Source: Tillus elongatus
Taxonomy: Eukaryota > Arthropoda > Insecta > Coleoptera > Cleridae
Reading direction: 5' to 3'
Assembly: GCA_964006375.1 (NCBI GenBank)
Contig: OZ023267.1
Span: forward strand, 80,795,682-80,859,681
DNA: 64,000 nt
In this document: positions 881 to 56,660 of the stretch, piece after piece
Layout of the letters: each line of letters opens with the position of its first letter
Position numbering within the stretch: the first letter of the stretch is position 1
The notes under the pieces: model-generated
Told to the model about the DNA's origin: nothing
The model's database searches: none
What the model saw: only the letters and a program-made list of their open reading frames with translations
Program-made: the position numbers and the translations under genes

Positions 881-1047
881 CTATTAATGTTATAATAAAT
901 ACCTACTACAGTAATATTTAGCATATTGTTTAAAGTTTTTCAATGCCTACAATACCCTCTCAATTTTAAATAAAAAGCAAAATAGCAGGAGCTAATTATG
1001 CAATTCAACAAGCATTTGCTTTCTTTTACATAGGTATTTTTTTACAG

Positions 1048-1281
1048 CGGACAGTAGTTTCCTGTTGGCGAACGCTCAGATCGTGGATTATCCAATTGTA
1101 TACTGCAACGAGTCTTTCTGCAAGATTTCTGGTTACAACAGAGCAGAGGTCATGCAGAAGTCCTGCAGGTGTGCCTTTATGTTCGGCGAGCTCACTGACA
1201 AGGAAACCATCTCCAGAATAGACCACGTTTTGGAACATCAGCTTCACGACCAATTTGAAATACTCCTTTATAAAAAGAATA
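1048..1281 (+). CDS. eag: Internal exon of Eag-type voltage-gated K+ channel (PAS/eag domain)
   Basis: The exon encodes 78 codons of the N-terminal PAS (eag) domain of an ether-a-go-go (KCNH) channel, which in the full protein regulates gating from the cytoplasmic side. Residues such as [36 protein letters not shown] and FEILLYKKN are diagnostic of Eag rather than Erg or Elk. It begins after a polypyrimidine tract and AG (1046-1047; exon from 1048) and ends at a consensus GTGAGT donor at 1282. The exon starts with two bases of a split codon and ends with the first base of the next. There is no stop or frameshift, so it is likely functional. The next expected exon, completing the PAS domain, was not found in the window. 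An open frame continues past 1281 but reads intron. Confidence 0.9.
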
Positions 1282-1603
1282 GTGAGTATCTAACTTTTCT
1301 GTGTATGCTTTTCTTGTATCAGTGTCGCCAATGTCATAGTCAACATAATGTAGTAAATATTTTCAGAATTTGCCATAGGTATTACACTTTCAATACAAAA
1401 TATACATTATTTTTCACGTGTTTTAAGCGCTACATCATACTTTTCCTACAGTTTTCAATTATAATAAGAAACGTTACATAATAAGATTTAAACACTGGTA
1501 TACAAAATTTTTTCCAAACAGTTGGCTAAAACAAATAAGCGGGAGAAGTCAAGTTCTTTTAGCAAATTTTTGCAAAAAAGTGTCTCTCCATAGAAAAGTA
1601 TTA
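1282..1603. other. Intron-like sequence, nothing recognised
   Basis: This is AT-rich sequence directly after the exon donor site. No ORF, repeat arm or RNA motif was recognised. Confidence 0.5.
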
Positions 1604-6378: not shown

Positions 6379-9167
6379 TTTTTTTTTCAACAACACACCA
6401 CGAGGGCTTACAGCCTAAATACTATCGTACCGTGGGTGTCGACAAGGAGGAAAGAGGCAACTTGTTGATTATGGACTTGAAGGTTTGGAGGTTCGGGGGA
6501 GAAGGAAAAAAGGAAAAACATGTGCCGGCAAGGAATTCCACACCTTGGAAATCCTCGGGACAAAAGAGCGAGCATAACAAGATGTTCTATGTCTGGTGAC
6601 CTGGACAGTAAAAGGATGCATTCGCTCTGTTCCCCTGGTAGATCTGTTGGGGGCAGCAGGTGAAGGAACTATGGAAGAAAGCACCTCTGAGCAGTGCCCG
6701 TGCAGATACCTATAAATAAGAGAGAGGTCACCAACGGCACCTCGGTGGGCAAGGGATGGCAGCCTTTGGGTGAGGGTAGGGTCACCGATGAGACGTATAG
6801 TTCTCTTTTGAATAGAGTCCAGGATAGCGAGTGTAGAAGCGGAAGCAGCACCCCAGACGTGGGAGCAGTATTCGAGGTTTGGTCTTCTTTGTGAAGTATA
6901 TAAAGTATAGATGTTAGCTGGTGAAAAGTATTTGCGGGCCCGGAAGAGGAAACCTAATTTCTTAGCAGCAGCTTCTGCTATTGATGTGACATGTTGGTGC
7001 CAATTGAGATTTCGATCCACAGAGATGCCAACAAGTGAAAAGGACTCATTACTTTGAATAACTTGGTTGTTTATTGTGATGAGTCTAGGGCTGGTGTATC
7101 TCTTATGAGAAAGAAAGCAAGACTGTGATTTGGTGGGGTTGAATTGTACAAGATTTCTACTTCCCCAGTCTAATATTTTTTGGAGATCCACGGAGACAGA
7201 GCCCTCAATGAGTCTGCGATCCTCATTTAATTGGGCTAAAGAGACAGGCCTAGAATGTTGTATATTTGATGGATGTGCTAGAGAGGAGGTCATTGATGTG
7301 GAGAAGGGGCTAAAGCTGAACCTTGAGGGATTCCTGCATTAATTGGATACAGCTTAGAGGAATGGCCATCCACGACAACAGAAATGCTCCGGTTGGAGAG
7401 GAAATTTGCTGTCCACGTACAGAGTTTTGGTGGTAGGCCATAGGCCGGAAGTTTATTAAGCAGCGCTGCGTGCCAGACCTGGTCGAATGCTTGGATATGT
7501 CTAGAGCGACAATCTGGGATTCACCGTGTAGTTCCATAGACTTGTTCCAAGAATGGGTGACAAAGAAAAGGAGGTCGGCAGTTGATCTGCGCTGACGGAA
7601 TCCATACTGCCTGTCGTGGATTAGACTGTGTTTTTCAAGAAAGTTTAGTAATTCGGTGTTTATATACTTTTCCATCACTTTAGAGATGACTAAAAGGAGA
7701 GAAATAGGCCTGTAGTTGCTAGGAAGCGCTTTCGATCCTTTATTGGGGACGGGTTGTACTCGAGCAGTTTTCCAGTTACTAGGGAATATGCCTCTATTGT
7801 AAGATGTCTGAAACAGACGAGTCAGGACAGAAGCAAGTTCTGGTGCGCATTTTTTTGAGAACAATTGCTGGGATCTCGTCAAGGCCAGAGGCTTTCCTGG
7901 TATTAAGAGAAGAGAGCATCTTTCGTACCTTTCTAGTTTTGAAAGTGATATCCGTCATTTTATGCGCGACATTGGAGACTGTTGTTGGTAGTTGAACATT
8001 TGGAGGTGGGTTGAGAGTAGAATTGTCAGCCTTGCCCAGGGCGGTAGAAACAATTTCATCCCCTGAGACAATAGGTGGGAATGTGCTCTTGCAGAAATTA
8101 TTCCCAATAGATTTAGCAAGAGTCCAGAGGGATTTGCTGCCGCTGGAGCTTAAGAGGACTTTGTTTTTGATGTGGTTATTAAACGAGTTTTTTGCCTCAG
8201 AAAAAATGCGGACATAGCGGATTCTTGCGTCGTTAAATGCTTGACGGTTTTCTTGACTGGGATTGTGTAGAAGCTTTTTGTGAGCTTTGACCTTTTCAAG
8301 TCTGACCTTGTCACAGGATTTAGAAAACCAGGGCCTTTGAGTGGTTGCAGAGGTTTTCTGTGTACGTGGGATAAATAATTCTATGCCAGCTTGGATAATT
8401 TCGGTGACGTTTTGTGAGATATCAGAGGGGTCAGGATGTGAGAAGCAGACAGACGCCCATGGAAATGAGGAAAAGTAATCTCGCATTTCGTCCCAGTTCG
8501 CGGAGTTGTAGTGCCAAACGATACGTGGGTGTGATGACTGTGTGACCTCGGGTTGCATTGCGCAGGAAGCAGTGACCATGCCGTGGTATAAGCGACCCAG
8601 TGGGGCGGTGACTGATATCTTATAGCAGTCAGGATTTGTAGTAAGAAGGAGATCCAAGGGATTTGAGCTGTGTGTTGGGATGCGAGGAAAGTAAGTAGGT
8701 TGCTGAACCATATTCGTTAAAGAATTGCTGACTGCAAAGGCCTCCGCTGCTCTTCCTTGTGGATCAGTTTTTGAAGATCCTAGTCATTCCTTATTATGGA
8801 CATTGAAGTCACCAAGAATGGTGACCTCGGAGGAAGGATATTCAGAAATCAGATAGTCGGTTTTTTCAGAAAGGCAGTCAAAGAGCTGGACAAAGTTGTT
8901 GTCAGAAGGTGACCGGTAAATGCAACAGATGAATTTAGTTGCAGCCCTGAGAGAGAGTTTTATCCATAGTATGTCTTTTCTTCCAGCTTCTAAATTGGGG
9001 AGTCTGGTGCAGGGTTGATTGCTTTGATGCAAGGGGTGGTACCTCCTCGGGCGTAAAAAAAATCATTTACTGCCACGTAAAAGAAAATTCCACTACCACC
9101 TACCATATTACAAGTATACCACACCAGCCAACTATTAAAGAGCTGAACAGCTTTAGAACTTGCTTGT
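6379..9167 (-). mobile_element. Non-LTR retrotransposon (jockey/CR1-like LINE), copy 1
   Basis: A minus-strand LINE with its 3' end at about 6379, marked by a short A-run that reads as T on the plus strand. In order it has an APE-type endonuclease remnant (8560-9060), a linker (7890-8560), reverse transcriptase (about 7000-7890) and a C-terminal domain (6470-7000). Related copies lie at 29.4-31.1 kb and 35.65-37.4 kb. It sits inside the repeat whose uninterrupted copy is at 13126-13855, so it inserted after that repeat. I found no clean target-site duplication. The exact 5' end lies somewhere in 9060-9167. Confidence 0.85.
6469..9060 (-). pseudogene. LINE ORF2 pseudogene (endonuclease + reverse transcriptase)
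   Basis: The gene would encode target-primed reverse transcription machinery. Endonuclease signatures GDFNVHN and SNPLDLLLTT are visible, then RT motifs NRGIFPSNWKTARVQP, NYRPISLL and YGFRQRRSTADLL. The C-terminal part has SFSLVGISVDRNLNWHQHV and ARSFVPRISKVWNSLP. The frame is broken at least at about 8711/8784, 7882/7794 and 7310/7293. Compared with copy 2, small deletions near 7285-7330 and at 7489 remove the segment carrying the YADD catalytic box and part of the SKAFDQVW motif, so this copy cannot be active. Confidence 0.85.
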
Positions 9168-9842
9168 TTGTTGGGTATGGTCAGGACTGTAATATTTTAT
9201 GACGTAATATACCTGTGCATATTTACTAAAAACCGACAATTGTTAAGAACTTTCAGCTATCGAAACTAATTACATCAAGGTGTATAACTTCGAAGAGTTT
9301 AGAAGAGATTAATGCTCTTTAAAATTAGGGCTTATATCAGTTAGGACCATTTCTGCCTGGAGACATCACATTTACTAATAAAATTGATCATTTTAATTTC
9401 CGTGTTTGGTTAACAAAATTTTGTTTTTAACTGTACGTACGTCTCATTATTATGGTTAGGATTTTGTTTGTGAAATTTCTGAAAAAAACTTGTTCGTCAA
9501 ATTTTGTGACATCTTTTAAGTGTTTTCTGAACTTAATTATTTTAACAAAATTTTTAAAGGGTGGGTGCTTTTGTTTGAAACTAATGCCAAAGCTATGGCT
9601 CAAAATAATATTTTTCCAATAATTTTGGCATATTAAGAATTAAAAAATTCAGTTTCTTTTAATTTGTGTTGTCTTCTAATATACACTCTGTATCATTTAT
9701 TTTGATACAATATCTGCCTTTCCTTTGTTAAAAACGCTATAATACATACCTATTTCAAATTCAAATTGGTGTTTCAACTTTAAAAATTTTGTCAAAGAGA
9801 TACGACCTAAAAGTTTGACATTCGCAGTAATTGACAAAAGTT
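9168..9842 (+). repeat. Right part of 0.7-kb repeat (copy B)
   Basis: Matches 13173-13855 at roughly 95% by eye, from 'tttgttgggtatggtcagg' to 'cgcagtaattgacaaa'. Together with 6332-6378 it makes a unit of about 720 bp. No coding capacity or terminal inverted repeat was found, so its class is unknown. Confidence 0.85.
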
Positions 9843-12199: not shown

Positions 12200-12378
12200 T
12201 ACCAACTTCGACAAATTCGAAGCAAATTACTTAACGGGGCTATCAAAGATGAAAAATTCGGCCAGAATCTCCGATACCAACTGGCAACCCCAAGAAAGCG
12301 TCTCACTTCCGTAACACTCGATGGATTGGGGATATTTAAAATGGCATTCACCTTCTTCGGATCGACATGCAAACCCTA
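12200..12378 (-). pseudogene. Ty3/gypsy reverse transcriptase connection fragment
   Basis: A minus-strand frame reads GLHVDPKKVNAILNIPNPSS then RRFLGVASWYRRFWP, the thumb/connection region of a gypsy RT. It joins a Polinton protease remnant at about 12378 and the integrase tail at about 12140. It is part of the same truncated gypsy element as the integrase tail. Confidence 0.75.
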
Positions 12379-12615
12379 GTTTGCTTATTATATAGAAATC
12401 GCAAGGATAGGTGTCCACAGTTGAAGGATTTAACAATTTGCTGTTTCCAGTAATTATAAGTAATTGTATTATCAACTCCATCACTTAAAAAATAATTAAT
12501 CAGTTCTTGCGGCGGTCGCAAATTGCCATAACTATCGAAGTAATCGACATTTAGTTTTATATAAGTTGTCCCGTGCGTACCTTCATTTGCTTTAGCGTCT
12601 AGATTAACAATTCCA
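12379..12615 (-). pseudogene. Polinton/Maverick adenovirus-type cysteine protease (PRO), fragment
   Basis: The minus-strand frame reads ECGIVNLDA, a GTH motif (plus 12570-12581), YFDSYGNLRPPQELINYF, and FNCGHLSLRFLY near its end (NCGH, plus 12411-12422). These match the His, Asp/Asn and Cys regions of the adenain-like maturation protease of Polintons/adintoviruses, which processes capsid proteins. The residue after the catalytic His is Gly, where Trp is usual. The N-terminus is lost in A-rich sequence near 12620. The C-terminus is cut by the gypsy fragment. The ATPase of the same element type lies 0.25 kb away on the opposite strand, which supports the call. Confidence 0.75.
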
Positions 12616-12704
12616 CACTCCGAATATTATTTTTTTTTTGGCATCCCATTGTAAAAAAACGAATGCTATGGTTTCAATTTTGGAACGTGCAAACGGTCTT
12701 AGAT

Positions 12705-12849: not shown

Positions 12850-13125
12850 TATTCTAAGTCCTTGAATCAACCCAAATATCAATATCTGAGATCTCTTTTC
12901 CAACGTATGAAAGAGATCGGCTATTCTGAATTTGATGACGGAAATCTGATAATCACCCCTGATCAGATTAAACCGAACTCAGTAGTTATATTCGATGATA
13001 TAGTTTGTTGTAATCAAAGCATCATCAGGGACTATTTTTGTTCCGGGCGCCACAATAAAGCTGATTGCTTTTATTTGTGTCAGACTTCTTCAATACCGAA
13101 ACAGCTGATTCGAGATAATGCAAAT
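12850..13125 (+). pseudogene. Polinton/Maverick A32-like packaging ATPase, C-terminal fragment
   Basis: About 92 codons of an FtsK/HerA-superfamily genome-packaging ATPase. A Walker B-like stretch SVVIFDD lies at 12979-12999. It is followed by the characteristic run IIRDYFCSGRH, DCFYLCQT and PKQLIRDNAN. The Walker A half is missing upstream, where the (AT)n array begins. The C-terminus is cut at 13126 by insertion of a 0.7-kb repeat. In Polintons the ATPase and protease genes are often neighbours, as here. The fragment is not functional. Confidence 0.8.
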
Positions 13126-13855
13126 GGTAATATTTTGAAAGATAATTATGGTGAGAGAAGAAGTGAGGCAGTTTGTTGGGTATGGTCAGGACTGTAATAT
13201 TTTATGACGTAATATGCCTGTGCATATTCACTAAAAACCGACAATTGTTAAGAACTTGCAGCTATCGAAACTAATTACATCAAGGTGTATAACTTCGAAG
13301 AGTTTAGAAGAGACTAAGGCTCTTTAAAATTAGGGCTTATATCAGTTACGACCATTTCTGCCTAGAGACATCACATTTACTAATAAAATTGATCATTTTA
13401 ATTTCCGTGTTTGGTAACCAAAATTTTGTTTTTAACTGTACGTACGTCTCATTATTATGGTTATGATTTTGTTTGTGAAATTTCTGAAAAAAATTTGTTC
13501 GTCAAAATTTGTGACATCTTTTAAGTGTTTTTTGAACTTAATTATTTTAACAAAAAGTTTTAAAGAGTGGATGCTTTTGTTTGAAACTAATGCCAAAGTT
13601 ATGGCTCAAAATAATATTTTTCTAATAATTTTGGCATATTAAGAATTAAAAAATTTAGTTTCTTTTAATTTGTGTTGTTTTCTAATATACACTCTGTATC
13701 ATTTATTTTGATACAATATCTGTCTTTCCTTTGTTAAAAACGCTATAATACATACCTATTTCAAATTCAAATTGGTGTTTCAACTTGAAACATTTTCTCA
13801 AAGAAATACGACCTAAAAGTTTTACATTCGCAGTAATTGACAAAGTTCTTTCCGT
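13126..13855 (+). repeat. 0.7-kb repeat, uninterrupted copy A
   Basis: This intact copy matches 6332-6378 plus 9168-9842. It interrupts the Polinton ATPase frame exactly after the Asn-Ala-Asn codons, showing that it is a mobile insertion. It has no TIR, poly-A or recognisable coding sequence; a 61-codon frame at 13457-13642 is Lys/Phe/Leu-rich and unconvincing. Confidence 0.8.
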
Positions 13856-20597: not shown

Positions 20598-21550
20598 GTT
20601 TCTAACTACAGTGTCCAACCTTATTCTTTTACCCAGAAGCTTGAGCTTTTTTAGTGCCGGTCAAAATTTTAAAATAGCAAATTTACAAATTTACATTTTT
20701 TCACGCAGCGTTATTAAGGCCATAACATTCCGGTGTTTGTTTCATTTGCCTTGCTCACATTGTGAATATATTTGAAAAAGCTTTTTCATCATATACAGGT
20801 CTTCAAAAAATTATTTAATCAATAATATAAATTATGAAGATTGTCAGAGTTTATTTTAAAGAAAAAAAAGTTTTATTGAAACGAAACCTAAGTTTAGTTT
20901 CATACTCATACTTAGGAAATAGAAAGATGTAGACCCAGCGAAAACTTCTAGAAAACCTGTCCCAATTGATGCTGTGTGGGAACTACAGTGAATTGGAAAG
21001 AGCTGCTGGAGGCAGAGAGTCATGATTGCGACGACAAGGCGACATCGCCTTTATGCTGTAAATATGATGACATTTATCATTTATCAACTATGTAACCAAT
21101 TACCTTAAAGCAAAAGTTTTTATAAATATTCGTTACCATAACGCACTTGCTGCGTCTGCACTTTTCTTGCTTATTAGTGTCAAATTCAGGATAATTTATA
21201 AGCGTTAATAAATTGATATTATTTTAGTTAAGGAAAATTAATTCTATCTGGAAACATATGACTGTTAATTTTTGCTCCTTTACCCTTCCGAAATGAACTT
21301 CCTCATCGGCGTAGAGATAAAAACCATAGGCCCCAAAGTAAGTATTTACCATCCTGATACTAAGAAGATACTTTAATATAAATCGATATCATAAAATCCT
21401 TGGGGAATATGGAAATCATCCTGCAAGGACATTACGATTCTAACCAGTACATCAAGTTTATTTTACGCTTCGTTTTTCTACGATTTGGGGGTATTGTTAA
21501 ATTATATAAATACAAACTGGTCCGTAATAATGTGGTCATGAAATAACTAT
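20598..21550. other. Unassigned sequence
   Basis: The only recognisable item is one copy of a dispersed motif, 'taccataacgcacttgctgc', near 21134. It also marks the (AT)n-bearing element family described at 41872-43303. Nothing else is supported. Confidence 0.35.
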
Positions 21551-22029
21551 ACAGGTGTGCCAATTAAAGCTTCCCACCTAGAAACTATCGGAATTAAAAA
21601 AAAACAAGACACGTCAACTTTGTTTTCAAGGGGGCGTAAGTTCTGGTGTCCTGGAACCTACCCCTTAGGCAAAGGCGTAAAGTACCGTTAAATTTTAAAT
21701 GACCCCATATGTTGTTTGACACCTCATTTTAGAGCCTCCTCGATTCTGCCCACGACAGCATGCAACTTTTTAAATTTTGGTTTGGATATAGCAATAAAAT
21801 CATCAATTAAAGAAGGAGACAAAATATCAATGAATTGCTCCACCTCTAAACGAACATTTTGGAGAATTTTGGGCGTTATCTGACGACTTTTTTTTTAACA
21901 ATTTCTCGATAAAAATATTTTATTTTCTGATGTTTCGTTTATCTCTTAATAAATGTTATCAATTCAACTTTCTTACTTGTTTTACTTTAAATGTGACAAG
22001 TCAATATCCCGTGGAATCGTTACAAAGTC

Positions 22030-22400
22030 GATTGAATTCCAATTTGTAAGAATGGTTTATTACAATTGGTGGAAAATTGAAAATAATTAGTTTGTTCTAC
22101 AAGAATGACAAATCTGTACGACGGGCAGCACAGATTTTTAATTATCGTTATCCTGAAAAAACACTTTGCATCGCTATATCCTGGATTTAGTGCATACATT
22201 TTGGGAAACTGGATCGGTTGCAAGCAGAAAACATCAAGGTAAGCAGGTCGTACGTAATGAGGGTAATCAGGTAGCTGCCCTAGGTCACATCGCAATGGAA
22301 CTAAATTTCTCAGGAAACTTGCAAGTACTTTACGAATTTCTGTAGCTAGTTGCCGCCAAATCTTAAAAAGTAATAAGTATCATCCTTACAAAATTAATTT
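22030..22400 (+). pseudogene. Mariner-like transposase, N-terminal piece
   Basis: Plus-strand frames, with stops and shifts, encode the DNA-binding half of an IS630/Tc1-mariner transposase of the DUF4817 type. Segments are YILDLVHTFWETGSV and HQGKQVVRNEGNQVAALGHI, then ISVASCRQILKSNKYHPYKI, the end of the second helix-turn-helix. Translation runs into the virus-like element at about 22401. The next residues of the protein are found at 26620. Confidence 0.8.
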
Positions 22401-22439
22401 AAGTAGATAGGAGGCCTCCCTGGCCCACCCCCTCCACTT

Positions 22440-22800
22440 TTTTCTGCGCATGCTTTGACAGATGACGTCACGGCGGCGGGAGTCAGCTTACAGCTGTCAC
22501 TATCTGTCAGCGGGTGGCGGGTAACCTGTCGGCTGACATCACATGTTCCAAACCTGTCAGCTGTCATCTGTCAGCTGACGTCACATGTTCCAAGATGGCG
22601 GGAGTCAGCTGTTATCTGTTAGCTGACGTCACATGTTCCAAGATGCTCGCTGTCACTATCTGTCAGCGAGTGCCAGATGGCGGAAGTCAGCTTTTATCTG
22701 TTAGCTGACGTCACATGTTCCAATATGGCCGCCGCTGTCAGGTCTTAAGATGGCCGCTGTCACTATCTGTCAGTGGGTACCAGATGGAGGGAGTTAGCTG
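22440..22800. repeat. Left subterminal repeat array of virus-like element
   Basis: At least four copies of a module built from 'gtcagctgacgtcacatgtt' and 'ccaagatgg', interleaved with 'gctgtcactatctgtcag'. The segment 22640-22741 is the reverse complement, about 90%, of 26320-26425. Palindromic CAGCTG and TGACGTCA sites recur and could bind host or viral factors. A 64-codon frame through the array is an artefact. Confidence 0.85.
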
Positions 22801-22849
22801 TTCGGTTCCAAGTTCCCGCTTGCCGCCATGTGGTCATACACACGTGTTA

Positions 22850-23140
22850 TTGGTTAAACAGGTACCGGCTGTCCGCTAGCCGAGAATGTTAGGTTAAGGC
22901 AGCATATGTGTGTTTGTTAGGTTATGTCGGCTGCCCGCTAGCCGAATATGAGATTAGGACTTCCAATTCCCCATGCTGAATGTTATAGGTTAAGTCTTGT
23001 ATGGCATAGGCTATGTTTGTTGACATATAAGATCAAGCATGTGTTGTCTCTGTGACGTATAGGACTCTGATTCCCGCTACCTGAATGCTTTCTTAGGTTA
23101 AGATTACACACGTTTGTTAGGCTATGTTTGTTATGAGTTT
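22850..23140 (+). promoter_or_regulatory. Upstream repeat region of the KilA-N gene
   Basis: Degenerate direct repeats carrying 'gttaggttaag', 'gcccgctagccgaa' and 'ggctatgtttgtt' fill the space between the subterminal array and the KilA-N promoter. Repeated short motifs in this position look like a regulatory or replication region. This is inference from position only. Confidence 0.45.
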
Positions 23141-23268
23141 ACCACGTGTTGGTTATCACATGTGTCGCAAACGTGTTTGCTAATACAAACTGAACACATG
23201 TGGTTTATTATTCAAGTCCTATGTGAAAACAAATACAGTTTACAAAAAACAGAGATGGTGTCAACATG

Positions 23269-23275
23269 TATAAAT
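23269..23275 (+). promoter_or_regulatory. TATA box of the KilA-N gene
   Basis: TATAAAT lies 98 nt before the likely ATG at 23367. A (CA)n stretch and possible initiator sequences ('tcagtt' near 23342) follow. Confidence 0.5.
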
Positions 23276-23366
23276 TGGGGTGCACACACACACACTCCTA
23301 AGCTCATTCACAATTGAGTTGTTACAGAGAGAGGACGTGCTTCAGTTTGCTCTATCTGTTTCAAAA

Positions 23367-24239
23367 ATGGCTACATTAAGTGATGTGTGCTATGAGCAAA
23401 TTAAAGACAACTTCTGGTATGGTCTATTTGGAGACTTTCAGTTAGTTATCGATAAGAACACTGGTTATTTTAATGCAACAAAATTGCGCAAAAATGGTGA
23501 AAAAAGCTTGTATTATTGGTTGGAAAATAAGAAAATCAAAGAGTTAATTGCCTATTACAACAAGCTGGCGGAAAATTTTGATCAACGGAATTCCCTTGGT
23601 CTAAATGTTCCAGCAGAAGGATGTGGCTTAGTACCTACAACTGCTACATACTTGGTAAAAATGGGTGCAGCTCAGACTGTAAACGACTCGATATCTGGTA
23701 CATATGTGTATAAGGATTTGATACCAAATTTGGCCTGTTGGATATCCAATCAGTTCTATTGCAAATGCAACCAAATTATTTTTGATTTTTTCCTAAGCGA
23801 ATTTGATTCGAAACACAGGGACAACCTTGAGGAGATGGAAGTGAAATTAATGGAGATAGATGATGAAGTGCAGCGTATGCGAGAAACAAATGCTTAACTC
23901 ACAGAACATATTGAAGATATATCCCCAAAGCCTAGTAACTCAGGAAAAATAAGTGTGTTTGGTTTACTTGCAAGAAACGAGAAAGACGCCAGCTATCCAT
24001 ATCATTCTACAAGAACGCAAAAGAAAAGTTTTCGAAGAGCTGTCAGGAACTTTAAAAATAAACATCCCGATGCCAAAGTGATCCTAAACATGTTGTATGA
24101 TCCAAATTCAGTAAATCTCTTTAACAGAATAAAGACCAAAGTGAAATACCTCACGGTGCATAGAAACAACTTACAGATAGCAGATGTACCGCAGAAAAAG
24201 TTTATTCAAGATATTTTTGATTTACATCATAATTTTTAA
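23367..24239 (+). pseudogene. KilA-N domain protein with DUF3627-like C-terminus, one in-frame stop
   Basis: The ATG at 23367 is the first good start. The frame runs 176 codons, meets a TAA at 23895-23897, and stays open in the same frame to 24239, another 113 codons. The N-terminal part shows the KilA-N DNA-binding fold: YGLFGDFQLVIDKNTGYFNA and ATKLRKNGEKSLYYWLENKK, then SGTYVYKDLIPNLACWIS. An acidic coiled linker follows. The C-terminal part has STRTQKKSFRRAVRNFK and YDPNSVNLFNRIKTKV, resembling the DUF3627 domain that accompanies KilA-N in insect DNA viruses. Such proteins bind nucleic acid; the exact role is unknown. The single stop suggests a recently inactivated gene or, less likely, a shortened product. 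Confidence 0.8.
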
Positions 24240-24250
24240 TTGTATTATAA

Positions 24251-24286
24251 AATAAAAACACATTAATTTTAACAAAGACTTTTATT
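24251..24286. terminator. Back-to-back polyadenylation signals of two convergent genes
   Basis: AATAAA on the plus strand at 24251-24256 follows the KilA-N stop. AATAAA on the minus strand (plus 24281-24286) follows the convergent gene. Only 71 bp separate the two stop codons, a compact viral-style arrangement. Confidence 0.65.
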
Positions 24287-24310
24287 TGAATCAAAGTACA
24301 AGTGTCTAAA

Positions 24311-24929
24311 CTAGGGCAAATCAACCTGCCACAAGCCATTCCAACCTTTAAGTATGGGACACCTACGTTCTACGATTCCGGCCGGTTGCCGGAATTCATT
24401 TATAGAATTCTTAACATCAGATGGTTCATCGTTACGTTGCTGTTGTCGTCGGCGACGCTTCATGGCGATGTTGGATTTAAAAGTATCCACCTGTCGTGCA
24501 AATCTTTTAGATTTTTGTCTATTTTTCAAACTTCTTCTTCAGCTTATGGCTCTTTGACAGATCTATATCTTTTGAAACTGGAACTGTTATGGTCTTGGTT
24601 AAATTTTTCAATTTCTGTTCAAATTCGTTTTTCAAACGTTCCAACTCTGGTTTGTGCACAGCCCCTAGCACTATGGCTATTAGTCTTTGTGTCACTTCAT
24701 CTTTATTTTTCAGATACTCAGCTTTATGTTTCTGATAGTCGTCCACCCACGTATTAACAAATGGCTTAGTTACTCCATCTGTGGAGTCGATAAGGTCGAC
24801 GACGTTACACAATTTACGGCGTTGCACATCGAAATCACCACTTTCTGTTCTTGGGAATGTCTCTCTTTCGATAATTTTAAACTTTACACGTTTATTGGAC
24901 GGAGAACGTCCAAACTTATCGGTAGACAT
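24311..24929 (-). pseudogene. Unknown gene of the virus-like element, probably frameshifted
   Basis: The likely start is the ATG at 24929 (MSTDKFGRSPSNKRVKF); an upstream in-frame ATG at 25028 looks less natural. The first frame gives 136 codons to a stop at 24519-24521. It contains TWVDDYQKHKAEYLKNKDEV and a Lys/Glu-rich, probably helical stretch. A frame shifted by one base overlaps that stop and runs to 24311. That extension is coding-like, with a basic cluster MKRRRRQQQR and an end just before the polyadenylation signal. I infer one gene of about 205 codons with a frameshift near 24520-24530. I do not recognise the family. The basic C-terminus could be nuclear-targeting or nucleic-acid binding. 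Confidence 0.5.
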
Positions 24930-25253
24930 TTTTATACTAAGCAATAGATAGGCATATATGACCTTATGTAGGTTTACTAAACGGCATTTAAATACATGTA
25001 AATTTTGTAGTCTAGTATGGACAGTCAAATCTATCTCTGGACATTTAAGTCAACACTGGACATAATTATAACGGTGTTTAAATGCAAATAGATTGAATTA
25101 TTTTGCGGGGAGTCACGTATGGATAAGGAATTATTAATAATAAGAAACAGTGGTAAAATATAAAAATGTAATATATTTACTCATGTGTACACTACAACAG
25201 GTTAACTAATTTAAAAATGGTCTCTCTTTGCAATTAGGCTTTTTTATTTATAC

Positions 25254-25431
25254 CAGAACCCCTGAGCTTCCGGGTCAGCTCGGAGGTGGGTGGAACGGTC
25301 GGGTCAGCTAGTTGGCGGGTCTGTTCGGGTCCGCCACTTGGGGTGACTGACCCGACCCATCACCAGACACCTTGCTGACCTGACCGTTCCACCTCCCGCC
25401 TCCGAGCTGACCAGGAAGCTCAGGGGTTCTG
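25254..25431. repeat. GC-rich long hairpin inside the virus-like element
   Basis: Arms 25254-25308 and 25374-25431 are complementary over about 55 bp with few mismatches and one 3-bp indel. The 65-nt loop has further self-complementarity ('cgggtctg', 'gacccgaccc'). It is much more GC-rich than its surroundings and resembles a viral terminal or origin hairpin. Its internal position suggests a replication origin, a fused terminus, or a separate foldback insertion. Confidence 0.75.
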
Positions 25432-25509
25432 AGTCTGAGACCGGAAAGCTTAGGGGTTTAACTTGAGCACCTGCACCGCCGTTTCTTATGACGTCACTCG
25501 CCTCCAAAA

Positions 25510-25625
25510 CATATGTTAGACAGCTGTTAGACAGCTGTCTGCCCTGTTATACAGCTTGTTAGACAGCTGTTAGACAGATATCTGTTCTGTTAGACTGCTG
25601 TCTCTCCTGTCTGTGCTGTCTGTCG
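25510..25625. repeat. Tandem 'gttagacagctgt' repeats
   Basis: Five or more diverged direct copies of 'gttagacagctgtc' precede the promoter region of the 135-codon gene. CAGCTG palindromes also occur in the subterminal arrays. Confidence 0.65.
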
Positions 25626-25811
25626 AATATTAAGACGAGTTGACTGGTTGTTTGCCTGATGCGAACAACACCGATGTTTTGTCCGGTTCGAACAACACGG
25701 ATGTTTGACGACAATATGCGATCATTAAAGATGCACCATATAATGGAATAGTCTAGGTGTATACGGCTAGTATTTTTTGGATATTCATTCTGTTAACATC
25801 GTTCTTACAAG

Positions 25812-26219
25812 ATGGCTTCCATATCAAAAGCTGATTTTCTGAGTTTACTAAATGGTAATGACATGAAGGCGATTTCCCCACAAGAAATGGCCAAAGATTA
25901 TGAAGCGTGTGTTACGCAGTGGTTTCATCTTCTCTTAAATGGACAAGATTTTAATTTGTTAATTTGTGTACCAAATATTAAGTGGTATTCAATTTGTCGA
26001 TGTAATTTAAAAGCAGATGATGGAAGTGTGGCGCATGAATACATGAACGCTTTGATACATTTTACAAATGGGTATACGGTTCAGGGATTTAAAAAGAAGC
26101 TGCAACGTGTAGTGCAACGTTTGCATCCTAAAACAACTTTCAAGAATATAATTTGTCTAGATCATGCTGTTCGAGTATTAAGGTATATTGCTTATGCAGA
26201 TATGAATTATCAAGTTTAG
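25812..26219 (+). CDS. 135-residue protein of the virus-like element, function unknown
   Basis: An intact frame from ATG 25812 to TAG 26217-26219, placed just inside the right subterminal array and reading outward. It has an acidic N-terminus, a hydrophobic core around FHLLLNGQDFNLLICV, a WYSICRCNL segment, then HEYMNALIHFTNG and a basic C-terminal half (KKKLQRVVQRLHPKTTFK). HEYMNALIHF resembles the second motif of HUH replication nucleases in spacing, but the two metal-binding His are not both present. No Tyr-containing third motif is clear. It may be a truncated Rep-like domain or something unrelated. Intact status and outward orientation suggest it was recently functional. Confidence 0.55.
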   Translation: MASISKADFLSLLNGNDMKAISPQEMAKDYEACVTQWFHLLLNGQDFNLLICVPNIKWYSICRCNLKADDGSVAHEYMNALIHFTNGYTVQGFKKKLQRVVQRLHPKTTFKNIICLDHAVRVLRYIAYADMNYQV

Positions 26220-26284
26220 CATCAAAAGAAGTTGAAAACGTATCAGTTTACGCATCAGTAAAAAAAATTCACAACAAAGAGACT

Positions 26285-26520
26285 TGCTGCCAGATGGCAG
26301 ATTGCTGCAGCGGAACCTGACAGCGGCGGCCATCTTGGAACATGCGACGTCAGCTGACAGATGACAGCTGACTCCGGCCATCTGGCACTCGCTGACAGAT
26401 AGTGACAGCGACCATCTTGGAACATGTAACGTCAGCTGACAGCTGACAGGCTTGAAACATGTGACGCCAGCTGACAGATGACAGGCCAGGTGACAGCTGA
26501 CAGGTCAGCTGACACCGCGT
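26285..26520. repeat. Right subterminal repeat array of virus-like element
   Basis: An inverted counterpart of the left array, with 'ccatcttggaacatg', 'gtcagctgacag' and 'agatagtgacagcg' modules. The outermost 26520-26619 differs from the left end apart from the terminal 9 bp and a shared TGACGTCA site. Confidence 0.85.
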
Positions 26521-26619
26521 AAGCACATAGAAAGGGGATTATCCCCACTCCTCCCAGCTCTGACGTCACAACCAATCAGAAGGCTCAGACCGGCGGACCC
26601 AGGTGTCGCTCTATCTACT

Positions 26620-27332
26620 AATTTGGTACAGGAACCTAATGAAGACGATCCATATCGCTGCGTGCAGTTCAGTGAATAAATCAGTGATCGTGCAAGAATA
26701 AATACAACCTTTTACTATACGCAATCTGTTTTTTGATGATTGTACGCTCCAACTGGATGGCCAAGTCAACCGCCATAAATGCCGCTACTGGAGTAAGGAA
26801 AATACAAAAATTGTCCATGAAACTCAAACGCAGCATCCGGGGAAACTGAACGTTTGCGGGGCATATTGGGAGACCACCTTTTAGGGCCTCTCTTCCAACC
26901 AGGTAATCTGGATGGAAACATGTATCTGCATCTACTGGAAATGAATATCTACCCGACGCGTGCGGAAGTATTGGAAAATGGCAACGTTTTGGCAGTAGAT
27001 GATGTATGGTTTCAGCAGGATGGAGTTCCACCACATGATGCCGCCGTTGTGAGTGATTTTCTTAATCAGAACTTTCCAAATCACTTGATAGGACACAGTG
27101 GTTCAATTGAGTGGCCTCCAGATCGCCAGATTTGACACCCTTAGACTTTTTTCTATGGGGACACTACACGTCGAAAATGTATGCAACACGACCACACTAA
27201 CTTGAGGAGCTTTGTCGACGAATTGTTGAAAAATATCAGATAACGCCCGATGAGCTTCGAAATATTTGTTCGGAAGTGGAGCAAAGATTTTATTATTGTA
27301 TGGAAGTGGAGGGAAAACAATTTGAACAATAA
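26620..27332 (+). pseudogene. Mariner-like transposase, catalytic piece
   Basis: The frame resumes immediately after the virus-like element with LVQEPNEDDPYRCVQFSE, then a stop. It continues with FFDDCTLQLDGQVNRHKCRY (first catalytic Asp), GNLDGNMYLHLLE, WFQQDGVPPHDAAVV (second Asp) and, after a 1-base deletion near 27122, SPDLTPLDFFLWG (third Asp). The gene ends at TAA 27330-27332 inside the right TIR. Two or more lesions make it inactive. Together with 22030-22400 it shows the insertion split a single gene. Confidence 0.85.
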
Positions 27333-28634
27333 ATTAAATAACACTCTTTCATTCATTCACATTTTGTCGTATTCTTTAATTTATGATTTTGTTGCCATAT
27401 CCAAACCAAAATTAAAAAGTCGTATGTTGTCGTGAGCAGAATTGAGAAAGCTTTAAAATGAAGCGTCACTCAACATTTCAAATGTGTCATTTTAAATGTA
27501 TGGGTACTTTACGCCTTTGCCTAGGGGGTAGGTTTCAAGACACCAAAACTTACAGCATGTGTCCGCTTTGAAAACGAAGTCGATGTGTCTCGGTTTTCTT
27601 TTTGGTCAATTCCGATATTTTCTAGGAGGGAAGTTTTAATTGACACACATGTATAATGAACGAATAATAAATAAATAAATTATAACTAAGTAATACATAC
27701 GATTATAAGTACTAATACCAATACATTACAGAAATCAACAATAATATTTGTAATTTTTGGCTAACAAAATTTTAAACGGAGATGTTTTATATACAGGTCT
27801 CCAGCTGGAAACTTACATGATACAGACTGCAGGATACCCTTAACGTTTTTTTCTGAAACTTTTTACATGTAATAAACAGAATGCGGTCTATTTAAGCAAA
27901 ATATTTTGACAGTTCTGCCACTTCGGGTGAAACCGGAAGTTGACAAAATCTTCGTTATTTTAAATAGAATACACACTTTTTTATTTTTGCAGTCCATAGC
28001 ATATGAAATTTTAATGTGACTTTATTTAACGTACCATATGCCTAAATATTAAGGCTTTCTAGATATTTATAATTTTATGGAAAAAATGACAGTTGCAAAC
28101 CCCTAAAACGATTAGCCACCGCAATAACTAATCAGAAAAATAGATTATTGAATGCTCTGGCGTTCCTAAGCGAAGACTTAGTAGATAATCAGAGAAATCT
28201 TTAGAATTATACAGGTGACTACAAAATTCGTCAAAAGTTTGGATCCAAAAATATAGAATATCTTTTTTTTAAATATAACCAGGCATTTTTGAATATCTTT
28301 TTTTTAAATATAACCAGGCATTTTTTTTATTTCGTTGGACTGCCCGACTAAAAACAGTGCAACTTGTGTTTACAATCCTATACCTAAATGTGACAGTTTT
28401 TATGTTGTTGACGATTTTTTGTAAAATCGATATTTTCTGAGATTTCTGCAATTAATAAGTTGGCCATCAGAATAAATTGTAAAAAAATTATCACAGAGTT
28501 GTCAAAACAACCATGTAAGTATTTTTGCCTGAAACACAATTTGTAATTGTTAGATTATATTAATTGAATAGTTGTCTAACCTGACATGCCTATGAACGAT
28601 AAAACGAAAAAAAAACCTTACAATTGGAAAAAAA

Positions 28635-48135: not shown

Positions 48136-49243
48136 AGATGCATACAGTGTGAAAGAAAAGTATGGACTGCCCTAATAACTACGTAATTTTTTTAAACGCT
48201 CGAGCACCTCAATTTAGTTTTTAACTGGACTACTTTTTCATCCAATTCATTAGTTTTTAGACCCTCTTTCTGATGTCCTGGCAGTAGTTTCAGCAATAGA
48301 GTTCATGGCTTAATAGTCTATAATGTTAGCAAATTTTCATATAAAAATCTATTGTTGAGAAGTCCGCGATTTATGGATTTTGAAAAGATATGTTCAATGG
48401 GGCGAACTAGAACCCATTAAACCCATATATGGGGTCAGTTTCAGTTTTTGTCTGTTTAGACATATACAGGGTGGCGCAGTTCTACGTTAAAGCTGAATAT
48501 ATTCCTTATTATACAAAATATAAGAAAACATTGTATACGTTAATTATAGGGTGTCGCTAGCTGCACATCTTATAAACTAATTTTGACAATCACGGGATGG
48601 CTCACTGGTCGTTCGTAATACACGCTTTCTTTTTTAATGGAACACCTTTATGTAATTGCATTTTTGCATTTTCCATCGAATTATAACCCATGTTGTGAGA
48701 AAACAGCTGATATCGTTCATCATTTTTGAGTTATTTCAATTGTTTTGCAATTTTTCACGTTTTTGGCATATATCACAATCACATATCACAATTTGTGATA
48801 CGGCGTTTTTACTAATAAATAGCGGAGCCACATGAAAACGACGCCGTATACAGGCGCTCTCAAATAGTGGTTGAATCTGAAAAGTTTTCGCAGAATTTTT
48901 TTAGTGTTTCCGAAAAAATCACTTTTTTTAACATTTATGTGAAACGGGGGTAATTACTAAAAAATGTTTAGTAAGTTATTGTAAAAAAGTTATCGAATTA
49001 TTGTGAAAAATATAATTTAGTGTAATGTTTCTTAAAAGAAATAGTGATTTTTTGTAAAAGAAAATGTTTCCAAATTTTCATATTTTGTTTTCAATTTTGG
49101 TCATAAAGCCGGTGAATAATTATATATTGGTAGGTGTGTAAATAGCTTGAAGAGGTTCGCTAGCCAGGAAAATAGGACCAGTTTTTTTGGACTGTTCAAG
49201 TTTACTTTCGAACTTTTTATACTTTTTGAAACCACAACACTAT
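48136..49243. other. Unassigned, with repeat fragments
   Basis: 48300-48460 contains a decayed piece of the (AT)n-bearing family ('catatatggggtcagtttca'). 48475-48720 is a relative of 46480-46860. No gene is supported. Confidence 0.5.
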
Positions 49244-50620
49244 TGTAACGAGGCCTGACTTGCGGGGTGAATTATGCGGTGGAACAGATTAACGGATTTA
49301 CGAGAACGGTCCTGGGCGCCAGATTTAGATTTTGAAAGGGTTTACTCCCTGCGAGGATGTCTGCGACCTCGTCACAAGGCTCTGGCCATGGTTGTGGTCA
49401 GAGTGCCTGGATAGCTCTGTGGAGAGGGTCCGGTAACCTATGATGTAACAGGCCGTATAGATACCTCCGAGGTTGCGGGCTTCGCTCCCCCGGTATTTCC
49501 CTGACCTTCCGAAAGTTTGTAAGGGCGTAGCAGATTTGTTTGCGGTTATAACATAGACTGAATATAATTTCCACACTTTATTATATTATAAAGCGTTACA
49601 GTCCACTGGTATGCTTACAATATGAAAGGCACTTATCACGCTAATTTATCCTAGAACAGGTTATGTTACTGGTGACGGGCCAACGAAATTAATTATTCCC
49701 CACGAAAAGAAATGCGGGAGACACGCGGACGGAAACTCCGGTTATCCGTGGATGCAGCCGTTAAGTGGGTCGGATCGAGACACGCTCCTCAAATAGTTAA
49801 AATGGCGTCTACCCGTCGAAGTCGGTACCACGAGATCCAACACCACGACGTCAGGGCGTCGGTAAGGAACGGGAGAGTTATGGGGTAACACCCCGTAAAA
49901 GGATATTGTTATATACTAAGTCGACCTTGGCCTGCTTGTGTACTACAGCGTCCAGACCAGAGTCGAATCGGAACGGTCGTACGCAATACCCTTGGGAGAT
50001 CTGTGTTAGCTATAGCATCACCTCCCAGAAGTATTACGACACGCCAACAATAATGGGATAGGGAAATGGAGGGGAATTACGCTAGATCCTGCGATCTCGA
50101 CGTCGACGGACAGGCGCGTAGGAACTGAGAAAAAAATATCCGAAAATTCGCTATAATTAGATTCAATAAGACAAACCTAAAATACTCTTACCTAGACTGC
50201 GTTCAGTAGAATTATTAAGCTACTAAATTGCCTCGCACAACAACGGGACGGACGGTACGGTATTCTGACGTTTTATTGCAATTTTTACGAACAAACTCTA
50301 TATTTACTGAATCTAAATTCCAGTTATAGACTTCAACACGCTACGGCAAACGGTGAACTCTTTTTGCCTTCAGTAGTTATTTTCTCTGCAGTCCCCGGCC
50401 GAAAAATCTTAATCGGTGGAAGATACCTTATGCTTATCTTCTGCAGATATGTTTTTATCTCCGCCGCGATAATTCGAAAATGCGTACTTTTAAGAAATAT
50501 TAATGATAAAAATAATAATTTTTACTGCGTGGCATTTTTACCCGTGGGAATTATATTATATTTATTTTCGAACAGCCGCTTTTAGTATCTACAGCTGTTC
50601 TGAAAATATCTACTTCGTCA
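49244..50620 (-). mobile_element. Gypsy B 3' LTR
   Basis: 1377 bp; plus-strand start TGTAACGAGGCC and end TACTTCGTCA. It differs from the other LTR by scattered substitutions and small indels. Frames inside it are not conserved coding sequence. Confidence 0.9.
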
Positions 50621-50769
50621 CTTACGACAGCGTTTACTGGCAGTTGTGTCCCAAGGTCTGGAATGACGCGGTGCCTTCCGTGTAGTAGACGCCTCGTGGT
50701 GTGTGCCGGGTCGTGTCCTGGACGCCTGGGCTAGAGCGCTCGAGTCACGTTGGGGCACCTGCATTACGT

Positions 50770-51080
50770 AGTTGGCGGACGGGATCCTCCTCATGTCGAC
50801 CGGGAACAGCGGAGACGGCGGGTGGTACGGTTTGTGGTCTTTGATGTGGATGTTGCGATACCTCTTCTCGGTTCGCCTTTCAGGTCGTAGACCACCCGCG
50901 ACACAACTTTGCTCACGGTGTACGGTCCCGTGTATTTCGGCGCCAATTTTGCCGCAAAGCCCCGGGGTGCCGAAGAGAGCGGACGATCTACCCGTAGGAC
51001 GCGGTCACATACGGCACACTGCCACTCGCGACGCCTCAGGTTGTAGTGGCCGCTCTGCTGAGAAAAGGCCCTATCGAGGT
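50770..51080 (-). pseudogene. pol: Gypsy B pol C-terminal tail
   Basis: Minus-strand frames after the integrase core read SQQSGHYNLRRREWQC, FAAKLAPKYTGPYTVSKVVS and RVVYDLKGE, the post-integrase module. The FAAKLAP segment also occurs in the gypsy fragment at 11.8 kb, so the two elements are related. Frameshifts separate it from the core. Confidence 0.75.
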
Positions 51081-51850
51081 TAGGTCTCCCGCAACTTCTC
51101 CACTCGATTCAAATAGCGGTTGATTTGGGGAGCGCCCACGACGGCGTTGTCTCCGTCTGCTGGTTCGGTGGTCGGTATCATGTTCGGTGCCGGCAATTCC
51201 CGCCCAAATTTGAGGAACGCCGGGGAGACGCCGGTCGACTGCTGTTTAGCGGTGTTTATGGCGGACACTAGCTCGGGTAATCTCTCATCCCATCTGGCCT
51301 GTTCGCTGTCATAAAACTGCGATATCATGGTCTTTAGCGTGCGGTTGCTTCTCTCCACGGGATTCGCTTGGGGTGTATACGGGGGTGTTAAACAGTGTTT
51401 GATGCCCATTTTTTTAGCAATCCTTTGAATATGCGACCGGTGAATTGGGGGCCATTGTCGCTAATAACTATTCGTGGGGTCCCGAAGCGCATCATAACCT
51501 GTTCCAAGAGCACGTCGGCTACGGCTTTAGCCGACGATTTTCGCAACGGTTTCGCTTCTACCCACTTAGTGAACCTGTCGTGCATGACAACCAGGTAGCA
51601 ATTACCCTTCTTAGATCGGGGTAGTGGTCCTACCAGATCTATACTCACGACCTCCCAAGGCCCCTTGCTGACAAACCGCTGTATTTTCCCAGGAAGTTGT
51701 TGCTGTGACACCTTGTACCTTCGGCAACGATCACACTGTCGGACATAACGTGCGAGGTCTCGGAACATGCCGGGCCAGTAGTAATTGTGGGTTATGCGCG
51801 CTATGGTCTTGGCGACTCCTAAATGCCCCGCGGTGGGCGCATCATGGTTT
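51080..51850 (-). pseudogene. pol: Gypsy B integrase
   Basis: The zinc finger begins just after an in-frame TAG at 51850-51852 (AGHLGVAKTIARITHNYYWP, then CDRCRRYK). Core: first Asp in VVSIDLVGPLPRSKKGN, second Asp in VISDNGPQFTGR. After a 1-base shift near 51405 the Glu lies in NPVERSNRTLKTMISQF. It would insert the cDNA into the host genome. A stop and a frameshift inactivate it. Confidence 0.85.
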
Positions 51851-52560
51851 TATTCTAGTACACTTGACCTGAAGTTTTTCGGGACGCATATTTTCCACGG
51901 GTTGTATACTTCAGGTTCGGCGAACTCGTTGGAGTCCCAGAAGTGCCTATAGAGCGTCCCCCCTTCCACACGGTAGTCCGGAAACGCATCGGGATTGTTC
52001 TGCACCTCGTTGATTTTGTTTATAAACCACGTGCATTGAGCGTCTTCTCGGCTGAAGAAAGCATGTTCTTCCGGCGTATCCCTAGCCGGTAACGCGTTTC
52101 GCGATAACGCGTCGGCCACTCGGTTCATGGCGCCTTTCCTGTATTTTATGGCAAAACCGTATTGCTGGAAGAACACACTCCAGCGTGCCAACCTTCCTGA
52201 AGGGCTACGGATTGACTGTAGCCATCGGAGGGACATATAGTCGGTTATTACGGTAAAGCTATAGCCTTCCAGATACGGCCTCATCTTTTCTATGCCCCAC
52301 ACTATGGCCAGACATTCTTTTTCTGTTACGGAGTATTTCTTTTCCGGGCCGGTCAGAGTACGACTGGCATACGCTATTACTCGTTCCCCCTCTTCCAGGT
52401 TTTGCGTCAGCGCAGCACCCAGTCCGTCGTTGGAAGCGTCGGTTTGTAACGTAAAGTCTGGGCACACTAACACTGTGGCCTCGGTGAGTCCGGTCTTTAG
52501 GTCGTCGAACGCCTGTTTTGGTGTACGGTCCAACTTCATTTTTCCTTCTTCTTTAGGAGC
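51850..52560 (-). pseudogene. pol: Gypsy B RNase H
   Basis: One frame carries PKQAFDDLKTGL, the catalytic QTDASNDGLGAALTQ, KYSVTEKECLAIVWGIEKMR and VITDYMSLRWLQS, then NRVADALSRN, the usual end of gypsy RNase H. It would degrade RNA in RNA-DNA hybrids. A frameshift near 52545 separates it from RT. Confidence 0.85.
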
Positions 52561-53235
52561 CTGGTTAGTGAGGCTGCTACTCGCGAAAAGTCCTTCAGGA
52601 ACCTTCGGTACCACGAGCACACTCCCAAAAACCTACGTAGGCTACGGGCGTTGTTCGGCGGGGGCATAGCGCGGATCGCCGCCACCTTATCCGGATCGGT
52701 GTGTATTCCCTCCTCGTTCACCACGTGTCCTAAGTATGTGATGGAACGGCGGCAAAAGTGGCACTTGTCTGGGTTTAGCTGTAGGTTAGCGTTACGGAGT
52801 CGGCGAAATACTTCACGGAGGTTGTTCAGTTGCTGTTCGAAGGTCTCTCCAAACACAATTACGTCGTCCAAATAGGCGAACGCGATGTCGTCCATGTCGG
52901 GAGTTATGATCATATCTAGTAGACGTTGGAACGTCGCGCTGGCCGAGTGGAGACCGAAGCACATTACCCTGAACTGGAATAAGCCCCTTCCGGGGACGGT
53001 GAACGCCGTGATCGGTCGACTCTTCGGCGTCAACGGTATCTGCCAGTATCCCAGTATCCCTGCCGCAGGTCGAGGGTGGTGATATACTTAGCTCGCCTCA
53101 GTTTGTCTAATATGGTCGATATGTACGAGAGGGGATACGCGTCCTTAACCGATACTTCATTAACTTTGCGGAAGTCTACGCAGAAGCGTGGGGTACCATC
53201 TTTTTTTGACAATCACGATTGGCGAGCTCCAGGGG
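52540..53235 (-). pseudogene. pol: Gypsy B reverse transcriptase
   Basis: Across frame breaks near 53210 and 53040 (the second caused by a short 'ccagtatc' duplication) the order is SSSPWSSPIVIVKK, DGTPRFCVDFRKVNEVSVKD, FQFRVMCFGLHSASATFQRL, the catalytic FAYLDDVIVFGE, and YLGHVVNEEGIHTDPDKV. It would copy element RNA into DNA. The catalytic box is intact but the gene is split into three frames. Confidence 0.85.
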
Positions 53236-55061
53236 CTAGACGACGGCTCTATGACGCCTTCCTCTTCATTAATTATTTCCTGAATTTTAGGGTTACGGGG
53301 TCTATACATGTGCTTGATAGGCGTGGTCTTAGCAAGCCGTATACGGTGTTGTGCCAGGTGAGTAGGGCCTTTGATATCTGCAAAAGCTGGTAACTCGTCA
53401 GCTAGGAATCGCTGCAGCTCCTGCTGTTCGACTGCAGATAGGTGTGGCAAGGCAGCGCCTTCTGTTGATACTTGTACCCCAGCCGTAAGTTCTGTGCAAT
53501 TTGCGACGGTGGGCGGTATGAATTCTCCATTTAGCCGGCACTGAGCGGTACGGAGGTCTATCTGACACCCGTGTTCCTTCAGGATGTCCATTCCGTAGAG
53601 AATATCGACTGCCAATGTGGGTAAATATAGCATACGGCGCCTGATAGTCCGCGAGCCAATCCTCATCACCAGGTCGTACGCCTCTCTGATGTTTATGGCA
53701 TTGCCGTCGGCGACCCGGGTGGCCATGTCGCCTATGGGGATCGCGGGGATGCCTCTAGAGTGGCAATAATCAGCCACTTTGCCACCCACGAATGATGGCG
53801 TGGCCCCGGTGTCCACCAGCGCTTCGGCGATGCTTATCGCCATAAACGGTCGGTTGTCTGTTATGACGGCTGTTTCCGAGGGTTCGTGTGACGGAAACTG
53901 CGGGGTCCTTGGCCCGGCGCAGTCCCTTAATAGTTTCCCTGATGGGGTAAGCAAGGGCAGTCCCTCGAGAGGGTGTCGGGACGCCCGCAGCGCGAGCAAA
54001 ACAACGTGGCTTACGGCGCTTGACACTGGCCTCTCATGTACCCGGGCTGGCCACATCGCCAGCAAGTAGGGGCAAATCTCACTGCGGGTGTTGTTTCCGC
54101 CGTGTACCTCATTTGGGTTAGCTCTCCTGGAGGCTGGTATAAACGTGCGGCGTTGAATATCGGACGTTGGCGGTGTTACCCTGGCGGTGGGGCTCGGTGG
54201 GGGTGAGTAGTACGGAGCATGGTTTGGCTGTGGCCTCGTCGGTAACCCGCCCAAACGCTGGTTACCACAGGTTTCTTGGACGAGGGATTCGACGGACTTA
54301 ACCTTCTCTATGAACGTTCTGATGTCCGGAATGTCACAATTCCACAGCATTTGGCGGTATTGAGGTAGAAGATTTCTTCTAAGCCATGTTAGCTCCTTTT
54401 CTGTGGAAATATTCCCATATCTCCTGATGAGCGTTTGGAGGTCGGTGGCATACCTTATGACCGGCTCATCCGGTAGCTGGAGCCTCCGGCTTATTTCCGT
54501 TTCTATGTCCACCAAGTAATTAACTGGGAAGTAGAATTGACGGAAATCAGTCAGGAAATCCTCCCATCGACTCCACATGCCCCGGTTGTTGCGGTACCAC
54601 AACAGGGCACGTCCATCTAACCATTGTGGGAGGGCGGATAATAGACAGTCGCTGTTGGCGCCTGAATATATGCGTATTTCCTCCAAACGTTCTAGGAAGG
54701 CAGCTGGGTCGGAATTTCCATCAAACTGTACCTTCCAGTTTGGGACATTTCCGGGCTCGCCTGTATATGTCCGGTTGGGAGTATACCCTCTACCCGGTGC
54801 TATTTCTGGGTGACCCTTTGTGCCCGGCTCGCTATCTTTGCCGTGCGGTGTCGTATCTGGCATGCCTTCCCGTAGGAACTGAGTCAGTCTAATGCGTTGT
54901 TCGTCTACGGTGCCACCGGTCGTGAGGCCAAATTTGGCCAATTCATTTTCTAATTCTGGCCTTATTAGTCTATATACCCACGATACTCGGGCGGCAGACG
55001 GAACGGGATCATTTTCCGTTTCGGAGACGGTAGCTTCGATGTTTTCTTGCGGAGTGGACAT
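53160..55061 (-). pseudogene. gag-pro: Gypsy B gag-protease (633-codon frame with shifted zinc knuckles)
   Basis: Starts at ATG 55061 (MSTPQENIEA). The capsid region contains NWKVQFDGNSDPAAFLERLE and FRQFYFPVNY. The aspartic protease active site is EALVDTGATPSFVG near 53815. Between them, at about 54000-54090, zinc-knuckle sequences (CWRCGQPGYMRGQC and a second CX2C motif) are readable only one frame away. The open frame therefore seems to contain a pair of compensating indels that skip the knuckles. The frame ends at RT start 53160 after another shift. Confidence 0.8.
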
Positions 55062-55280: not shown

Positions 55281-55283
55281 TTT

Positions 55284-56654: not shown

Positions 56655-56660
56655 CACTAT

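Follow-up and report, generated by a model that had tools for sequence, protein, structure and literature searches.

A 4.2-kb inserted unit with a KilA-N/DUF3627 gene in the beetle Tillus elongatus, possibly a non-autonomous element with Maverick/Polinton-type ends

A stretch of 64,000 nucleotides from the genome of Tillus elongatus (contig OZ023267.1; hereafter the window, with positions counted from its first letter) contains a 4.2-kb segment that carries a KilA-N gene and sits inside a decayed, mariner-like gene, and the question raised by this locus is what kind of element the segment represents and how it came to be there. Positions 22402-26619 form a discrete unit with defined ends, inserted into an older, decayed mariner-like element. 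We favor the explanation that this unit is a decayed, non-autonomous element with Maverick/Polinton-type ends and accessory genes that was mobilised in trans, a reading that could equally well prove right or wrong.

The limits of the unit (22402..26619, 4218 bp) are given both by its tips, AGTAGATAG from 22402 and CTATCTACT up to 26619, and by the frame of the interrupted gene, which is continuous once the unit is removed. The left flank ends in AAAATT AATTTA and the right flank begins with AATTTG GTACAG, such that a putative target duplication, AATTTA on the left (22396..22401) and AATTTG on the right (26620..26625), is matched at five of its six bases. When the unit is excised together with one 6-bp copy, the joined flanks read KYHPYKINLVQEPNEDDPYR and the interrupted frame runs through without a break. 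A preliminary description of this locus had correctly recorded 9-bp terminal inverted repeats and AATTT on either side, but it set the start one base early, at 22401 instead of 22402. The same description had spoken of an interrupted transposase; the continuity of the frame stands, but the identity of the gene was assigned by eye from the joined-flank translation (left part 22041..22395, right part 26620..27300, both on the + strand), and the two pieces have no transposase match in Pfam. Inverted repeats of about 300 bp (21548-21835 and 27351-27655, 79%) enclose the mariner-like gene. Matches of its pieces in the PDB were to designed proteins only, over about 25 residues, and were disregarded.

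Both ends of the unit belong to long, colinear terminal inverted repeats (TIRs), 345 bp on the left (22402..22746, + strand) and 305 bp on the right (26315..26619, - strand). Aligned from the tip inward over 349 columns, 243 of 301 aligned bases are identical; the match is exact over the outer 9 bp, and in the stretch just inside the tip the two ends are weakly related, with a score reached by 1 of 500 shuffles. The inverted arrays previously reported near the ends are present, but they are better understood as the inner part of this single 345/305-bp TIR, which contains repeated units such as TGACGTCACATGTTCCAA. The TIRs also differ from the rest of the locus in guanine-plus-cytosine (GC) content (54% on the left and 56% on the right, versus 34-38% in the open reading frames (ORFs) and 38% in the flanks). 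It should be noted that a 9-bp inverted repeat with a 5/6 flank match is weak evidence by itself, because of the 5951 pairs of 9-bp inverted repeats lying 1-10 kb apart in the window (after removal of low-complexity pairs, those made up of fewer than three different letters), 124 share at least five of six flanking bases. Only one of these 124 pairs, that of the unit, has an AGT tip, and of the 125 AGT-tipped 9-bp inverted pairs spaced 1-20 kb apart, the unit's pair and one pair 18 kb apart have a 5/6 flank match. The weight of evidence for a real insertion is carried by the coincidence of the tips with the interrupted frame and by the long colinear TIR. Elsewhere in the window, blastn returned just four matches to the unit, of 18-33 bp (E 0.019-0.79), and exact scans found no occurrence of a subterminal 18-mer in viral contigs or of a 20-mer in prokaryote genome contigs. 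No report of such a unit was encountered among the titles and abstract openings of a literature search of partial coverage.

Three ORFs lie between the TIRs. ORF A, on the + strand, consists of a first part with a KilA-N domain (23367..23894; PF04383, E 7.3e-21), an in-frame TAA (23895..23897), and a second part in the unchanged frame with DUF3627 (23898..24239; PF12299, E 3.1e-18), the halves on the two sides of the stop matching Pfam separately. ORF B (24519..24929, - strand, 136 aa) is an orphan that is helical in a low-confidence model; a possible continuation with a run of Arg is found in another frame (24311..24518, - strand, read from frame 24311-24538, for which Pfam gives no match), so that a frameshift past its stop is probable from the translation. 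Hence, two of the three genes, ORF A and ORF B, look damaged in this copy. ORF C (25812..26219, + strand, 135 aa) is likewise an orphan. In length the three ORFs are beyond chance: region 22831-26260 holds three ATG-initiated ORFs of 176, 136, and 135 aa, and among 300 dinucleotide shuffles of the same region just 4 had a longest such ORF of at least 135 aa, while in no shuffle did the second-longest ORF attain that length. The three compact genes with convergent polyadenylation signals of the preliminary description are partly upheld, with one AATAAA at 24251 (+) and another at 24281 (-), among others, between the convergent ORFs A and B, but ORF A is split by a stop and ORF B is apparently frameshifted.

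No homologue of ORF B or ORF C was found at E≤1 among 5.8 billion proteins (14 and 28 word-sharing candidates, respectively). Matches to PDB sequences were weak at best (E 0.088 or worse), and the best values in Pfam, PHROGs, and NCBIfam, 0.027 for ORF B and 0.056 for ORF C, were taken as chance. Scans of viral contigs with ORFs A, B, and C and with a KilA-N alignment confirmed no relative, these being exact-word scans of weak sensitivity. Single-sequence structure models scored too low for use on the predicted local distance difference test (pLDDT 51 for ORF B and 49 for ORF C), and Foldseek with the ORF C model of pLDDT 49 gave no match at E≤0.001. A look at its sequence suggested that ORF C might be a degenerate rolling-circle (HUH) Rep, but this found no support in Pfam, PHROGs, or the PDB and was dropped.

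KilA-N proteins are DNA-binding regulators, and that of the unit has relatives in both viruses and spiders. With the KilA-N part as query, 45 homologues (from 71 candidates) were retrieved at E≤0.001, ten of which carry an organism name: three are entomopoxviral (46-49% identity to the first part of ORF A) and seven are from spiders (36-44%), namely Larinioides, Araneus, and five Trichonephila clavipes sequences, the contigs that bear the spider entries ranging from 37 kb to 4.6 Mb in length. The second part of ORF A shows 35% identity to P0006 over 102 aa. In a tree of the window protein and 31 of the 45 homologues (the other 14 were omitted, and all sequences were trimmed to 200 residues), the window protein has a long branch and groups with two proteins (support 87/79), within a wider group of eight that holds two spider and three entomopoxvirus sequences (support 92/94); neither of these forks reaches the strict mark of 95 and 80. 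The gene is thus related to genes of large DNA viruses of insects, in which, by the earlier remark, KilA-N occurs with DUF3627. According to the available parts of the literature, KilA-N and PF12299 proteins are found in large DNA viruses (PMC8715426), and a poxvirus-like contig as well as megaviruses of protists show heavy duplication of KilA-N proteins, for which a host-immunity arms race has been speculated (preprint PMC11071296).

Of 21 frames that overlap the unit and run for 60 aa or more from stop to stop (three of them scanned from the first ATG), those of KilA-N and DUF3627 alone reached the Pfam cut-off, and no match to an rve-type integrase was obtained, which agrees with the earlier statement that no transposase, integrase, polymerase, or capsid is visible. 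Insertion in trans by a Maverick integrase is suggested because the tips and the duplication each fit Maverick at five of six bases, and the TIR length fits as well, while the core genes are missing. An autonomous Maverick of the same genome would have provided the rve-type integrase, which would have recognized the unit's tips and joined them with a stagger of 6 bp. The unit itself may descend from a Maverick whose core block was lost while the accessory regions beside its TIRs stayed in place, or its TIRs may have come to enclose virus-derived genes. Deletion of the core would leave the layout seen here, because the core genes of vertebrate Mavericks form two modules that, in the available text of one survey, are flanked in most elements by accessory regions (PMC8097293). 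The KilA-N/DUF3627 protein would then be a DNA-binding regulator drawn from a pool of genes that is shared with the large DNA viruses of insects, and together with ORFs B and C it may have served the element or its helper, although this copy is presumably now dead or dying. The former view that the unit is of unrecognised type, or a new element class, is disfavored by the resemblance of its tips, 6-bp duplication, and TIR length to those of vertebrate Mavericks as described in the accessible sources, and by the fact that non-autonomous Mavericks are a recognised category (PMC6327564, as far as its available text goes). If the unit is just a deleted Maverick, this would still suggest that the accessory cargo of Mavericks can include genes of this sort and that small mobile derivatives can be left behind by them.

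Several observations weigh against a Maverick origin. The duplication contains one mismatch, and its true length may be 5 bp with one further base matching or not by accident. The likeness of the tips is short, a 5/6 match to one given hexamer having a chance of about 0.5% and three motif types having been published. The comparison of ends is based on vertebrate elements. Protein-primed DNA polymerase, ATPase, protease, and capsid genes are all without a Pfam match in the 21 frames of the unit. One copy of the unit was seen, with no sibling or autonomous partner within the 64-kb window, and the passages on KilA-N available to us from literature that names both Polinton and KilA-N draw no link between the two. 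A weak point in favor of such an origin is that short coding remnants on the two sides of a (TA)n run, at 12351-12626 (-) and 12859-13171 (+), look by eye like a Maverick protease and packaging ATPase, but these fragments have no match in Pfam, the PDB, or viral contigs.

The best-surviving alternative, one we regard as unlikely but worth serious consideration, is that the unit belongs to a different superfamily of DNA transposons, one that makes duplications of 5-6 bp, and is a non-autonomous member moved by a cut-and-paste transposase, having taken up a KilA-N gene of viral origin along with two further genes. Elements of this sort often have TIRs in which subterminal motifs are repeated, and the duplication could be 5 bp; on the other hand, no transposase remnant was recognised in the 21 frames. 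The AGT tips and TIR length fit Maverick, whereas Ginger elements, the one such group compared, differ at their ends, having TGTNR tips and 4-bp duplications in the available description (PMC2836005).

ORFs B and C are separated by a gap in which lies a GC-rich long hairpin of 178 nt (25254..25431), found by repeat search and folding and followed by 43-bp tandem repeats (25514-25599). Folded as DNA, 25240-25440 reaches -81.7 kcal/mol (z -15), and none of 200 shuffles was as stable, so the internal GC hairpin noted earlier is real; an Rfam search of the window gave nothing at the gathering score. This hairpin could represent an origin, a fold-back element nested in the unit, or a deletion scar. 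The first of these possibilities is part of a second and rather improbable alternative, in which the unit is an independent small virus or satellite, not derived from Maverick, with a hairpin replication origin, a KilA-N regulator, and integration by a helper's enzyme in the manner of virophages or transpovirons. This reading would accommodate three compact ORFs beyond chance, the very stable central hairpin, the orphan status of ORFs B and C, and a KilA-N domain in common with entomopoxviruses, but the ends are Maverick-like, viral contigs yielded no relative in the weak exact-word scans, and no capsid, polymerase, or Rep gene was recognised. The search for a capsid or replication protein covered Pfam, PHROGs, NCBIfam, and the PDB, and ORFs B and C, being without detectable relatives, could hide one. 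A composite of nested insertions, with ends from one element and the hairpin or genes added later by separate insertions, is very unlikely: the 178-bp hairpin and the 43-bp tandem repeats could be a nested fold-back element, but by eye there is no flanking duplication around the hairpin. About as unlikely is that a piece of a large DNA virus of insects became endogenous and happened to end up in the mariner copy. KilA-N and PF12299 (DUF3627) proteins are indeed known from large DNA viruses (PMC8715426, in its available part), but the frame continuity, the duplication, and the 0.3-kb TIR at the junctions are unexpected for a random fragment, and ORFs B and C have no match.

Beyond the favored reading of a decayed, non-autonomous element with Maverick-type ends, a broader and decidedly doubtful proposal is that the unit stands for a class of small mobile elements or satellites of arthropods that has yet to be described, in which Maverick-type ends surround a conserved set of KilA-N/DUF3627, ORF B, and ORF C. 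Such elements would be moved by Maverick enzymes, their KilA-N protein would exploit or fight large DNA viruses, and the spider KilA-N/DUF3627 copies would be their relatives. Should there be siblings that carry this gene trio, animals would have a satellite system resembling virophages, and KilA-N genes of entomopoxvirus or iridovirus type would have a way into arthropod chromosomes.

Other features were noted elsewhere in the window. The sole host-gene-like exon recognised is an exon-like ORF at 996-1481 (+) with a PAS domain (PF13426, 8e-14), by eye an exon of a potassium channel (KCNH). Direct repeats of 674 bp, 96% identical, at 9166-9838 and 13171-13844 mark an apparent long terminal repeat (LTR) retroelement remnant, and the piece between them gives a sub-threshold match to a Tf2-1-like SH3 domain (2.6e-06). 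A second LTR-type element (49243-56655), bounded by 1.4-kb direct repeats that are 95% identical, has reverse transcriptase, H2C2, and rve integrase domains with sub-threshold gag and protease matches. Nearby, an ORF at 57260-57847 (-) resembles by eye an insect retroviral envelope and has no significant match in Pfam. Inverted 1.1-kb copies at 61584-62663 and 62908-64000, 97% identical, are by eye of Penelope type with GIY-YIG; the one ORF scanned in them has no Pfam match.

Transpovirons and virophages, like the unit as read here, are small helper-dependent units tied to large DNA viruses; on a comparison of general features, no gene in common with them was recognised in the unit. The likeness to the entomopoxvirus N1R/p28-like KilA-N proteins and to the spider-genome KilA-N/DUF3627 proteins 006L/313L lies in the first part of ORF A, but the gene of the unit is split by a stop and housed in a 4.2-kb element with TIRs. 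Compared with vertebrate Mavericks as described in the available portions of PMC8097293, which measure 12.7-24.6 kb, the unit is smaller at 4.2 kb, and their core genes were not found in it. Its tips, AGTAGA//TCTACT, agree at five of six bases with (AGT)2//(ACT)2, the commonest vertebrate motif beside (AG)3//(CT)3 and (AC)3A//T(GT)3, reading AGTAGA and not AGTAGT. Vertebrate Mavericks make 6-bp target duplications, and here the two putative 6-bp copies agree with each other at 5/6 bases; the TIRs of 345 and 305 bp fall within the published range of 46-1,447 bp (mean 402). Likewise, non-core genes adjoin the TIRs in both.

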